Source: Bacteroidota bacterium
GTDB taxonomy: Bacteria; Bacteroidota; Bacteroidia; Chitinophagales; Chitinophagaceae
Reading direction: 5' to 3'
Assembly (NCBI GenBank): GCA_013285905.1
Contig: JABDGU010000007.1
Span: forward strand, 1 to 64,000
Length of the DNA: 64,000 bases
The position numbers were made by a program, and so were the translations under genes. The notes under the pieces were generated by a model. It had not been told where the DNA came from. It searched no databases and saw only the letters and a list, made by a program, of their open reading frames with translations. Positions 1,751 to 32,284 of the stretch are shown piece after piece. Numbering within the stretch: the stretch's first letter is position 1; each line of letters starts with the position of its first letter.

Positions 1751-1782
1751 GGACCTCTCCCTGCCTCTCCAAAGGAGAGGTG
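1751..1782 (+). repeat. Palindromic repeat, CCTCTCC/GGAGAGG arms, intergenic copy
   Basis: This 32-base element contains a direct CCTCTCC doublet. The second copy pairs with GGAGAGG across an AAA loop (CCTCTCCAAAGGAGAGG). It matches 31 of 32 bases of the copy inside the T9SS gene at 3856-3887, and an inverted diverged copy is in the signal peptide coding region at 30006-30039. It lies upstream of mltG, outside any gene. Confidence 0.85.
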
Positions 1783-1859
1783 ATGTGGCGAGCATTGTTG
1801 TTTAAGCAAAAACAATGATAAGAAATTGGTGCATAGTTGATAATCATAACATATTTTCT

Positions 1860-2186: not shown

Positions 2187-4121
2187 ATGAAAAAGCTATC
2201 CATTGGCCTTATTGCTTTTCTTTCATTTATTTTTTTGCCTTGGGGTTTATTTGCGCAGGGGTGGAGTGAGTTGGGGACTGGGGCTAATGCCCTTAATGCG
2301 AATTTCTCTATAATAAGTGTTACCTCAGATATTGCAGGAAATGTGTATGCCGCTCAGTTCTCGGACTCTTTTGCTTTTAACCCCCTCGCGAATAACTACA
2401 TTACAAAATGGAATGGTAATAACTGGACAGAATTAGGCACAGGAATACATGCCCTTAATCCTAATAATTACGTTATAAGTCTTACTACTGACAAATTAGG
2501 TAATGTATATGCTGCGGGAGATTTCACTGATTCAAACTATAGAGAGTACGTCGCTAAATGGGACGGTGTTAACTGGACAAAATTAGGGACTGGAGTTAAT
2601 TCCTTAAATGCATGGGGCCAAATAAATATTATTACTACTGATAAATTTGGTAATGTATATGCTGCGGGTGGATTTACTGATTCTGGTGCTTTGCCAAATG
2701 GTCATCCTTATGTCGCCAAATGGGATGGTGTTAGTTGGACAGAACTAGGCACAGGTCCCAACGCATTAAACCCGAATAAAGACATATATAGCATGGCGAT
2801 AGATAATTTCGGCAACGTATATGTGGCAGGTGGTTTTACGGACTCAACGACTTGGTTGCCCAATGGGAATCATTATGTTGCCAAATGGAATGGTGTTGGC
2901 TGGACAGAATTAGGTGCAAGTCTCAATGCATTGCACGCAGATGGCGCAATCAATAGTATTGCAGTTGATAATATTGGAAATGTTTATGCAGAGGGGCAAT
3001 TTATGAATTCGAATGGTGAATATTATGTAAGCAAATGGGATGGCAGTACATGGTCTGAATTAGGCATTAATAATAATAGTTTAAATCCTAATAGTTGGAC
3101 TGGGACACTTACGTTGGATGATTCTGGATATGTGTACGTTACAGGCGATTTTACAGATTCAAATGGGCATTACTATGTGGCTAAATGGAATGGTAACATT
3201 TGGTCTAAACTAGGTACAGGTAGTAATGAATTGAATGCAAATGGTCCGGTTGTGTGCTTAACAACAGATGTTTTAGGAAATATTTACGCTGGTGGTTCTT
3301 TTACGGATTCAACTGGTAAATATTATGTGTGTGAATATTCCCAGTATATTTCTATTTTCTGCCATAATTATTCCAGCGGACTAGGCCTCGACTCCACAGA
3401 CATCGGCCGTTTCATTATAGGCCCTGACACTTTCGGCTCGGTATATTCTCATCTTGCTAATCCTGCTGCATTTCATTCTTATACTTTTAATTCCGCCGAT
3501 ACCATTCAATTATCTGTTGACAGCAGCTACCATATACAGGAGGCCGGCATTATGAATACTATACATGATGCAGATGCCAAAGTAACTTTGTTTATAGACT
3601 ACAATGCCAACGGGCATTATGATATACCGGAAGAAAGGGTCTGGACAAGCTATTCCAAAGCTTTCTATTATTATATCCTTGATACAAACATTATCATTCC
3701 ATCTACTGTTGCCGTAGATACGCCCTTGGGTATGCGGCTAATTATTAACAATGACACCGGCGCCAGTGCCGCGTCGGATTCTGCATGTGGAACTTATGTA
3801 TCCGGTGAGACGCAGGATTATGTTGTTATTTTCAGGAATGGGATGGAGGGGATAAGGACCTCTCCCGGCCTCTCCAAAGGAGAGGTGACAGTATGGCCCA
3901 ACCCGGCTGAAAATAACCTGAGTATTAAGATTGTTGGTCAGGCGACCACCAATCTTAATGCAGTGAAAATATTTGATTTGGTAGGCAGAGAAGTGTATAG
4001 CAATGCTGTAAAAGGGAATGCCCTTAACATTAATGTTTCAGCTTGGAGCAATGGAATGTATATATGCAGGGTGTCGTGTGCAGGCGGGGAGATGGTTAGG
4101 AAGTTTGTGGTGAACCATTAG
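2187..4121 (+). CDS. T9SS-exported protein with seven propeller-like repeats
   Basis: This is a secreted protein of 644 residues. The start at 2187 gives a clean signal peptide (MKKLSIGLIAFLSF to FAQ); an upstream in-frame ATG at 2136 would only add a non-signal prefix. About 390 residues follow as seven repeats of roughly 50, each of the form W(T/S)(E/K)LG.G...LN...GN(V/I)Y..G.FTDS...YYVAKW.G, consistent with a seven-bladed beta-propeller. A non-repeat region follows (CHNYSSGLGLDSTDIGRF), then a T9SS type A sorting domain beginning VTVWPNPAENNLSIKI and ending MVRKFVVNH. A palindromic repeat at 3856-3887 encodes the linker just before that domain. The ligand is unknown. Confidence 0.88.
   Translation: MKKLSIGLIAFLSFIFLPWGLFAQGWSELGTGANALNANFSIISVTSDIAGNVYAAQFSDSFAFNPLANNYITKWNGNNWTELGTGIHALNPNNYVISLTTDKLGNVYAAGDFTDSNYREYVAKWDGVNWTKLGTGVNSLNAWGQINIITTDKFGNVYAAGGFTDSGALPNGHPYVAKWDGVSWTELGTGPNALNPNKDIYSMAIDNFGNVYVAGGFTDSTTWLPNGNHYVAKWNGVGWTELGASLNALHADGAINSIAVDNIGNVYAEGQFMNSNGEYYVSKWDGSTWSELGINNNSLNPNSWTGTLTLDDSGYVYVTGDFTDSNGHYYVAKWNGNIWSKLGTGSNELNANGPVVCLTTDVLGNIYAGGSFTDSTGKYYVCEYSQYISIFCHNYSSGLGLDSTDIGRFIIGPDTFGSVYSHLANPAAFHSYTFNSADTIQLSVDSSYHIQEAGIMNTIHDADAKVTLFIDYNANGHYDIPEERVWTSYSKAFYYYILDTNIIIPSTVAVDTPLGMRLIINNDTGASAASDSACGTYVSGETQDYVVIFRNGMEGIRTSPGLSKGEVTVWPNPAENNLSIKIVGQATTNLNAVKIFDLVGREVYSNAVKGNALNINVSAWSNGMYICRVSCAGGEMVRKFVVNH
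3856..3887 (+). repeat. Palindromic repeat in frame inside T9SS gene, before the sorting domain
   Basis: The element matches the intergenic copy at 1751-1782 in 31 of 32 bases. In frame it encodes R-T-S-P-G-L-S-K-G-E-V, immediately upstream of TVWPNP, the first strand of the sorting domain. The reading frame continues through it. Confidence 0.85.
3930..3948 (+). repeat. Palindrome ATTGTTGGTCAGGCGACCA inside the sorting domain
   Basis: The core TTGGTC-AGGC-GACCA can form a hairpin. The 19 bases are identical to 32084-32102 in another T9SS gene, at the equivalent position of its sorting domain. They encode I-V-G-Q-A-T in both. Confidence 0.75.
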
Positions 4122-29953: not shown

Positions 29954-32284
29954 ATGAAACAATACACATCCATCCGGCAAATTTGCTATTTTCTTTTTAT
30001 GCTCTTCCTCCTCGCTTTTGGAGAGGCCAGGAGAGGTCTTTATGCCCAATTACCTGTTTGCAGCGGGCCGGGCAGCGGAATTATATATTTTACTAAAGTT
30101 AATGGGGATACTATTTTCAATTATGACCCTTCACAGCCTGCTTCGGCCACTAATCCATCTGTAAATACCATTCATTTGCCGGCAGGTGCAAGCCTACAGG
30201 CCCAATTAGCCGTAAGCGAGAACCTGAACGCAGCAAGCCCTTCGCCCACTTTTTATACTATAATGCATAATAGCACTAATAACCAGAACTATTATTACTA
30301 TTACGATGGCGCTAATTGGGTAAATACGGGGCATACCGCAGGGCCTTCTTTTGTAAGTGGCCACTATTTCAGCCTTGGCGCCGGTGGAGGCTATATTTAT
30401 AGCTCAAATTCATGGTTGGACGATGATACCGTATGGAAATATGATGGCAGCGGCAATGCAAGTATCTTATTTTCTGATATATTAGACGGTAATGCCTTAA
30501 TAGGAGATATAGCTGTGGACTGTGAGGGCAATTTTTATCAATTGTCACAAGAAGGCGCTTATTTTGATGAATACGATCCGGGTGGCAATTTAATTAATTC
30601 CTGGGGCCTTACGCTTGGCCCATCATCAGGAAGTGATGGGCCCGGTGGCTTAGCCATTATCGGCGACAGTGTATATATAGCGCAAACCCGTAATTTTTAT
30701 TCAGCTTATATAAGCGGAGGCAACCTTGTCATTTCCGCTAATATATATAATACTTCTATTTCAACCGAACCGATCGCTAATTTCGGCACATGCCCCCAGG
30801 CCATAGTAGTGGCACATACCAGCCCCGATACGGTATTTCATTGCCCCGGCGCAGCCGCAGATACCCTGTATGGCAGCGGGCAGGGCACACTGACCTGGAG
30901 CGTGCTGAATGGGCCTGCCACTCTAAACGGCAACGGAGATACTATAACCGTAAGCACTACGGGCAATGCCGCTGTGGTGTTAAGCAGCAGCTATACGGAT
31001 TGCCCCATACATGCAGACACTGTAACAATATTAAGTCTGCAGGCCCATGCAGGCTCTGCAAATAGTGCGGTATGCGCAGGCGACAGCCTGCACCTGCAGG
31101 CAAACGGGCAGCCCGGCACGGCTTATAGCTGGCATGGCCCTGCTAATTATACTTCTATAGCGCAGGATACCTTTAGGGCCAATATGGCGCTTAATGACAG
31201 CGGCTATTACGTGGTAACCGAGAACTATGATAATTGCAATAGCACAGATTCTGTGCATGTTGCAGTGCAGGCGCTCCCCGCAGCACCCGTAGCAAGCAGT
31301 AATAGCCCGGTGTGTGTGGGAGACAGTTTGAAACTGAATGCCACACTTACTGCAACGGCCCAAAGCTGGCAATGGGCAGGCCCCAATACCTTTAGTAGTG
31401 CCTTGCAAAATACCTTCAGAGCAGCCACAGTGTTTGCAGATTCAGGTAATTATACGGTTACCGCTACAATAGGTGTATGCAAAGCAAGCGATACCATCCA
31501 TGTGCTGATAAAACCTGTGCCCGGCCTGCCTATAGCAACGAGTAATGGGCCCATATGTTTAGATAGTAATTTGGAATTGGGAATCGGGAATTTGCAGGTG
31601 GGGGTGAACTACCAATGGACAGGGCCATTTACATATACTGCCGGCATTGCAAACCCTGTAAGGACGAATGTTATTTTAAGCGACTCGGGAAAATATATTG
31701 TTAAGGCCATTCTGAATGGCTGCCCTTCTGCCGCAGATACTATTGATGTTATTATCAATGCACCGCTCATACCTACAGTAAGCATCACATCGCCAAGTAT
31801 TATTGCAGGGCACACCGATACTTTTACGGCGCATGTCGTTAATTGCAGCAATCCCCTTTATCAGTGGTATATCAACGGCGGCGCCATACCCGGCGCCACA
31901 GGCAATCCTTTTCCTGCCACTTTATTTAATGGCAATACAATATCGGTAAGTGTGCATTGCAGCGGCTGTGTAAGCCCGGATAGTGTGGGGAGCAATGTGC
32001 TGACAACAGGGATACCCCCCAGCCCCCTAAAGGGGGAGTTCTCAGTGTGGCCTAATCCCTTTAATGATGAACTCACAATTGAGATTGTTGGTCAGGCGAC
32101 CAATCCCGCCGTTGGTGGGAGCTTTGGTTTGAAGATTTTTGATATTGTGGGGAGAGAGGTTTATAGTGATATGGTGAGTGAAAATAAAATAACCATTTCT
32201 ACGAAAGATCTTTCTGCGGGTACTTATATTTTACGTCTTAGCGGTAGTGATGGCACTGTGATGATAAGGAAGATCATCAAATAA
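29954..32284 (+). CDS. Large T9SS-exported protein with Ig-like repeats
   Basis: This is a 776-residue secreted protein. The signal peptide hydrophobic core (YFLFMLFLLAF) is followed by an unusual charged GEARRGLYAQ, encoded by an inverted palindromic repeat. Residues about 40-290 form a propeller-like domain (SQEGAYFDEYDPGGNLINSW). Then come at least three Ig/PKD-like repeats of about 85 residues with the pattern VC.GDSL.L...........W.GP..........F.A....DSG.Y.V. A T9SS sorting domain (FSVWPNPFNDELTIEI ... VMIRKIIK) ends the protein, preceded by another palindrome that encodes PPSPLKGE. An adhesive role is inference. Confidence 0.87.
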   Translation: MKQYTSIRQICYFLFMLFLLAFGEARRGLYAQLPVCSGPGSGIIYFTKVNGDTIFNYDPSQPASATNPSVNTIHLPAGASLQAQLAVSENLNAASPSPTFYTIMHNSTNNQNYYYYYDGANWVNTGHTAGPSFVSGHYFSLGAGGGYIYSSNSWLDDDTVWKYDGSGNASILFSDILDGNALIGDIAVDCEGNFYQLSQEGAYFDEYDPGGNLINSWGLTLGPSSGSDGPGGLAIIGDSVYIAQTRNFYSAYISGGNLVISANIYNTSISTEPIANFGTCPQAIVVAHTSPDTVFHCPGAAADTLYGSGQGTLTWSVLNGPATLNGNGDTITVSTTGNAAVVLSSSYTDCPIHADTVTILSLQAHAGSANSAVCAGDSLHLQANGQPGTAYSWHGPANYTSIAQDTFRANMALNDSGYYVVTENYDNCNSTDSVHVAVQALPAAPVASSNSPVCVGDSLKLNATLTATAQSWQWAGPNTFSSALQNTFRAATVFADSGNYTVTATIGVCKASDTIHVLIKPVPGLPIATSNGPICLDSNLELGIGNLQVGVNYQWTGPFTYTAGIANPVRTNVILSDSGKYIVKAILNGCPSAADTIDVIINAPLIPTVSITSPSIIAGHTDTFTAHVVNCSNPLYQWYINGGAIPGATGNPFPATLFNGNTISVSVHCSGCVSPDSVGSNVLTTGIPPSPLKGEFSVWPNPFNDELTIEIVGQATNPAVGGSFGLKIFDIVGREVYSDMVSENKITISTKDLSAGTYILRLSGSDGTVMIRKIIK
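30006..30039 (-). repeat. Inverted palindromic-repeat copy inside a signal peptide
   Basis: On the reverse strand it reads AGACCTCTCCTGGCCTCTCC and then AAAAGCGAGG, a diverged copy of the elements at 1751 and 3856. On the coding strand it supplies the residues LLAFGEARRG before the cleavage site YAQ. Confidence 0.75.
32011..32040 (+). repeat. Palindrome GCCCCCTAAAGGGGGAG in frame before the sorting domain
   Basis: C-rich and G-rich arms flank TAAA. In frame it encodes I-P-P-S-P-L-K-G-E-F, directly before SVWPNP. This is the same site as the CCTCTCC/GGAGAGG palindrome in the T9SS gene at 2187-4121. Confidence 0.8.
32084..32102 (+). repeat. Palindrome ATTGTTGGTCAGGCGACCA, copy 2
   Basis: Identical to 3930-3948 over 19 bases. 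Here the palindrome extends to GATTG-TTGGTC-AGGC-GACCAA-TC. It codes for IVGQAT in the same strand of the sorting domain. Confidence 0.8.

Follow-up and report, generated by a model that had tools for sequence, protein, structure and literature searches.

A palindromic DNA repeat set in frame, at constant length, in the cargo–sorting domain linkers of T9SS genes in a Bacteroidota lineage

A short palindromic repeat that is scattered between the genes of a Bacteroidota genome also lies in frame in proteins, and in ten T9SS genes it occupies an identical position in the linker between the cargo and the sorting domain (CTD), where it has replaced the native linker at constant length rather than being added to it. 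The repeat family, its in-frame copies, the empty sites, the identical placement in ten genes, the constant length, and the discreteness of the unit are directly established. To account for them, we favor, with a probability of about 0.62 for the account as a whole, an RPE-like family whose protein copies survive in loops, a linker filtered for length, and in-register copying between paralogues after the founder insertions.

The window, a stretch of 64,000 nucleotides whose features are collected in Table 1, belongs to a draft genome (G000; a MAG with 129 contigs, a total length of 2.5 Mb, and a completeness of 61%), and the sister species (G001, 89% complete) is represented by the congener MAG CAIYVS01, “uncultured Bacteroidetes bacterium T7_bin-146”. 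The first-pass annotation had called the product of the carrier gene (2187–4121) a T9SS protein, and this holds: the Por_Secre_tail profile (PF18962) matches residues 569–642 with 51.6 bits, compared with its curated cut-off of 27, as in type A cargo. The function of the carrier protein is a putative one, assigned via homology, and its export, cleavage by PorU in the linker, and anchoring are predicted from work on related systems (PMC4804311, PMC11969387). The cargo part contains a six-fold, SBBP-like repeat of 50–55 residues (2385–3310). The unit sits between the GEVED and sorting domains, is followed by T-V-WPNP, and begins 36 nt 5' of the first codon (W/Y) of [WY]PNP, or 33 nt 5' of the V/I codon that opens the Pfam domain. 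Alignment bore out the reported identity of 3856–3887 with 1751–1782 at 31 of 32 positions, as well as the intergenic position of the latter copy, and the reading (I)RTSPGLSKGEV directly before TVWPNP, in an unbroken frame, was correct; the repeat described at 3856–3887 is real, but the unit common to all carriers spans 3858–3888. A further comparison of the window copies (family D8) gave 32 of 33 identical positions. The 17-nt core, CCTCTCCAAAGGAGAGG, forms a hairpin with a minimum free energy of −14.3 kcal/mol in the 3869–3885 copy, where z is only −1.4 (−2.2 for the intergenic copy), and with up to three mismatches it matches the window five times versus 0.06 expected from shuffles. In an AlphaFold model whose overall confidence is low (mean pLDDT 61) and which was used for linker disorder only, residues 109–121, which hold most of the unit, have pLDDT values below 50, and the linker carrying the unit is predicted to be disordered between two strands.

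Table 1. Positions of the repeat, its carrier gene, and related features in the window.
Feature	Position	Strand	Basis
Intergenic copy of the unit	1751..1783	+	alignment to 3858-3888 unit
T9SS cargo gene carrying the unit	2187..4121	+	SBBP repeats, GEVED, Por_Secre_tail
GEVED domain, 5' of the linker	3582..3827	+	aa 466-547
31-nt palindromic unit ACCTCTCCCGGCCTCTCCAAAGGAGAGGTGA, in frame as TSPGLSKGEV in the cargo-CTD linker	3858..3888	+	six T9SS genes at 31/31, four others at 24-30/31
Palindromic core CCTCTCC-AAA-GGAGAGG	3869..3885	+	hairpin
Type A sorting domain (PF18962), begins VWPNP	3891..4112	+	profile match
Imperfect palindrome GATTGTTGGTCAGGCGACCACCAATC, in frame, 3' of the first CTD strand (IVGQAT)	3929..3954	+	repeated in other CTD genes
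Decayed intergenic core copy, 2 mismatches	30010..30026	-	core pattern match
Different palindrome CCCCCTAAAGGGGGAG in the linker slot of a second T9SS gene (GIPPSPLKGEFSVWPNP)	32023..32038	+	sequence
Sorting domain of the second T9SS gene	32045..32278	+	profile match

The first-pass proposal of an RPE-like, genome-wide repeat lying in frame in a protein is borne out by about 38 copies in G000, and the further genomic copies whose absence would have spoken against it are many. Like repeats of the RPE kind, the unit is palindromic, forms a hairpin, and is present in many copies per genome: with two mismatches allowed, the core is found at 38 places in G000, compared with one for a reversed control pattern. 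Exact cores with any three-base loop number 28 in G000 and 32 in G001; four other genera have 10, 8, 7, and 5, and the remaining relatives 0 to 2, most of them none. Common to the copies are a left arm, (A)CCTC(T/A)CCCC(G/A)(G/A)(C), and the core; the right end is one of several (TGAY, AGGTGTT, GAGATGTTGCGCAA, or AGAAGCTAAACTGCGTGTTG), with units of ~31 to 45 nt around the 17-nt core. The unit is open in five of its six reading frames, but only one serves at the T9SS slot. Assembly error is an unlikely source of the pattern, since two separate MAGs show it within open frames.

A profile search of G000 gave 124 PF18962 matches, and the linkers of 122 were examined. Ten of these genes carry the unit (six at 31/31, two at 30/31, one at 28/31, and one at 24/31), invariably at the 36-nt distance given above, in one orientation and one frame, so that the junction reads TSPGLSKGEV-x-V-[WY]PNP. 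In G001, the unit stands at junctions on contigs C59, C602, and C131 and in diverged form on C632 and C524; placement at the sorting-domain junction, which had been raised as possibly common, hence recurs in ten genes of G000 and three to five of the sister species. The [WY]PNP motif has W in 7 of 10 carriers versus 5 of 104 others (Fisher p = 2e-6, uncorrected for kinship). None of the 394 other genomes sampled from the phylum had the pattern at a real junction; among 60 relatives there was a single near-miss outside the genus, and within the named genome collection only the sister MAG has it. An insertion would add 10–11 residues, yet linkers with and without the unit are equally long, which identifies the event as replacement: from the last GEVED strand to PNP there are 19 residues with the unit and 17–19 without it, Ig-type cargo linkers have 19–22 versus 20, and a tandem pair on C104 has 13 versus 12. 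The nearest homologues lack the peptide. Replacement of the linker at native length goes beyond the first-pass annotation, as does the presence of the family in housekeeping proteins and in loops of the CTD. In several carriers T-T-G-[LVI] directly precedes the unit, so that on cleavage the peptide it encodes is probably lost together with the CTD. Short tandem repeats fill some linkers (NVGNVVNVVNV and NVRNVGNVRNV; C104:2086 in G000, and L221 and L222, that is, C732 and C422, in G001).

Within the sorting domains, copies occur in the loop after the first strand (LTLSLSEGEGTARV; C62, C106, and C33 in G000, C408 and C542 in G001), in the central loop, both forward (C295 and C408 of G001, read as ASPGLSKGEVT) and reversed (C632 of G001, read as TSSPLERPGEV), and near the last hairpin (C24 of G000). 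As with RPEs, the proteins that contain in-frame copies are diverse, namely T9SS proteins, IleRS, LeuRS (two copies), and NuoL, and relatives preserve empty synthetase sites. The first LeuRS copy of G001 corresponds to 17 residues where relatives have 10–11. The second, GEPFPVIY-RSLTPALSKGEGDVAQESI-PY, represents a gain of 15 residues (45 nt), and the empty sites read IIY-VDDV-PY in G000, IIY-RDGI-PY in G007, and IVY-KNNI-PY in G002. The IleRS segment has 43 residues in G000 versus 19 in G001, and NuoL contains a partly decayed copy common to both genomes. Reverse copies were also observed in frame near the end of a cyclase-type-looking gene (SSSPLEKSGEV; L023, C25:6825 of G000) and at the C-terminus of an RdgB-like-looking gene (TSSPLERPGEV; L012, C34:7474 of G000), and the LeuRS of another genus of the family (L335, G009) contains a different palindrome peptide, LTPNPSPKERG, in frame.

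The slot is also used by at least three other palindromes. Four further G000 junctions hold different palindromes or palindrome-like repeats, with CCCCCAGCCCCCT(A/G)AAGGGGGAG at two of them (and at three exact and one decayed junction in G001), CCCCTCTCCATACATGGAGAGGGG at one, and TCCGCCGCGGCAGA at another; two of the three G000 copies found of CCCCCTNAAGGGGGAG lie at such T9SS junctions. The remaining 108 of the 122 CTD genes have a slot without a recognized palindrome. Other repeats recur inside the domain itself. The palindrome TTGGTCAGGCGACC(AA), which follows the first CTD strand in frame (IVGQAT) at 3929–3954 of the window, is also present at L102 (the CTD at C7:32045 of G000), L239 and L298 (the C295 CTD of G001), L067, and L294, and a central CTD loop, RDCFVPRNDG (CGAGATTGCTTCGTTCCTCGCAATGACG), is found at C33:14996, C29:15345, C1:51644, and C76:4768 of G000 and on C811 of G001; it looks like yet another inserted repeat family.

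Carriers occupy at least six places in a tree of 121 CTDs, each with element-free neighbors, and the tree led us to reject duplication of a CTD with its linker within one clade. Copies from different clades are near 1.00 identical within the unit, third codon positions included, while identity drops to background at both borders at once, the synonymous sites of the following codons included, so that the unit behaves like a discrete object. The CTDs at C33:14996 and C1:51644 are 86% identical, yet have different palindromes and different cargo. Within one cargo family (L221–L230 and C33:14996 of G000), mean identity is 60% for the cargo and only 32% for the CTDs, a discrepancy that suggests exchange of sorting domains between cargo genes.

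The reading that we favor is as follows. A short palindromic family of this Bacteroidota lineage has copies both between genes and in frame in proteins, where they would survive solely if the chain forms a free loop. The cargo–CTD linker would be the best loop available, in that it is disordered, is cut by a sortase that ignores sequence, and mostly leaves with the CTD. In RgpB of P. gingivalis, the linker before the CTD is disordered and cleavage by PorU is sequence-independent; insertion of a hexapeptide into it yields a soluble, non-anchored protein, whereas substitution of the same six residues gives a wild-type phenotype (PMC4804311). In Prevotella intermedia, the preferred cut, PT/GI, lies in that flexible linker (PMC11969387). 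Under the length rule, which derives from one protein (RgpB) of another genus, linker sequence would be nearly free while length would matter for anchoring, and copies matching the native length would be retained. After one or few founder insertions, filled linkers would then have been copied in register between paralogous CTD genes, presumably by short-patch gene conversion or template switching, and ongoing copying may maintain the uniformity of the unit. In-register copying accounts for the shared position, frame, and orientation and for the unchanged length, but fails on the sharp borders: shared synonymous sites would be expected beside the unit and none remain, which points either to old events, with uniformity preserved in the unit only, or to movement of the unit by itself. 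The 45-nt gain in LeuRS also counts against it, as insertion with net gain does occur, and no transposase or recombinase could be linked to the repeat.

That gain is clean, and together with the sharp identity borders, the random flanking synonymous sites, the spread of carriers over many CTD clades, and the excess of W over Y in [WY]PNP (uncorrected for kinship, as above), it is what would be expected if a non-autonomous mobile element, served by an enzyme that recognizes the start of the CTD coding region (GTNTGGCC...), had inserted independently in each gene, always at one place and in one orientation, and the old linker had been lost. Such targeting is a possibility that we hold only tentatively. 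It sits poorly with T9SS linkers that show no net gain in length, with other palindromes in the same slot, and with intergenic copies that lack the supposed target; no target duplication was seen, and neither G000 nor G001 yielded a cognate Y1/RAYT gene with the unit beside it. We have given in-register copying about twice the weight, because the RgpB data imply that lengthened linkers should be lost. Of the original suggestion that the repeat tolerates, or targets, linkers, tolerance of sequence is well supported, by the published linker experiments and the several palindromes in the slot; the identical offset, frame, and orientation go beyond tolerance combined with random landing, but are as compatible with copying between paralogues as with targeted insertion. 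A rather improbable extension is that the palindromes in the linkers serve as joints for recombination among T9SS cargo genes, their hairpins being kept for promoting exchange of CTDs and linkers, in line with the 86% identical CTDs that bear different cargo and with the unequal identity of cargo and CTDs.

Chance landing followed by survival in neutral DNA, with linkers being neutral and nothing more, is in keeping with the use of linkers and loops and with the RPE and REP precedents. With permitted DNA taken as 0.3 Mb of intergenic sequence (assumed) plus the linkers, however, ~0.5 copies would be expected in linkers at any position and orientation, whereas 9 of 38 core copies lie at one exact position of 122 linkers (p ~3e-9), so something concentrates copies there; moreover, one frame is used although five of six are open. 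We consider this explanation very unlikely, and equally so a role of the hairpin as such, in DNA or mRNA, under which selection, for example for a translational pause before the sorting domain, would keep the unit identical: the hairpin potential of the unit, the several palindromes in the slot, and the sub-threshold matches of both window copies to Rfam whalefall-1 would agree with it, but not the modest z of the linker copy or the 108 CTD genes without a recognized palindrome there. The view that TSPGLSKGEV is a conserved functional linker peptide, with the DNA likeness secondary, accounts for the identical peptide and place in ten genes but is rejected and has a negligible probability, given that within the unit third codon positions show the same conservation as first and second ones, that intergenic copies are identical, and that the nearest homologues lack the peptide and offer no version of it with diverged codons, a degenerate search for PGLSKGEV[TI] in 199 genomes of the order having returned no other codons, only G000 and one G549 match that is the same DNA between genes.

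These observations extend protein-coding palindromic repeats to Bacteroidota. In the open-access literature we found no report of in-frame palindromes in this phylum, which is weak evidence, and no description of what is new here, namely that copies gather in a secretion-signal linker without changing its length and that several palindrome families use this slot. They suggest that repeats can enter proteins wherever only length matters, and the rule of free sequence and fixed length, known from a single P. gingivalis protein, becomes visible as an evolutionary pattern. Nature has in effect run an experiment with one DNA repeat and one linker in at least ten exported (predicted) proteins, and whether RPE-like elements choose sites in proteins or are filtered there can now be tested. 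For annotation, LSKGEG, SPLERPGEV, or TSPGLSKGEV in a Bacteroidota protein should be taken as repeat DNA and not as a domain.

Among known systems, whalefall-1 (RF01762) is a candidate RNA known only from whale-fall metagenomes. On the minus strand, window positions 1752–1783 and 3857–3888 both match it below the gathering score, with a similar stem, CUCUCCUU(G/U)GGAGAG, and the arm GGGNGAGG, but they score 22 and 19 bits versus the required 37 and lack the central 23 model positions; whalefall-1 might itself be such a repeat. Like MITEs, which are non-autonomous short repeats able to add peptides to proteins (PMC10969869), the unit is short and adds an in-frame peptide; unlike them, it is too short for terminal inverted repeats plus a body, and no parent transposon was found for it. 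The aligned copies have no terminal repeats beyond the hairpin, and no target duplication is visible at the empty sites, which have diverged. The GTAG/CGTC REPs are single stem-loops of 20–40 bp that lie between genes and at times in frame within genes such as those of tRNA synthetases (PMC3733652), and the unit is of similar size and has the same arrangement. It differs in having no regular GTAG or CGTC end tag (GTAG lies near a handful of the 73 listed copies only). A RAYT link finds no support in G000 (61% complete) and G001 (89%), whose five PF01797 genes each adjoin other hairpins, none being flanked by the unit. RPEs are palindromic repeats whose copies lie between genes as well as in the reading frames of unrelated proteins, including housekeeping ones, with several families per genome (PMC10969869, PMC3733652), and the present repeat is likewise both intergenic and in frame in unrelated proteins, some of them housekeeping. 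The reviewed RPEs are of ~150 bp and the RPE-4 and RPE-6 repeats end in CGTC, whereas this unit has 31–45 nt and no such tag, CGTC occurring only sporadically near copies; it also belongs to Bacteroidota and gathers, with linker length unchanged, in a single slot of one class of proteins. By this comparison, we do not assign the repeat to the RPE families, but regard it as of one kind with RPEs and intragenic REPs and as working in the same way.
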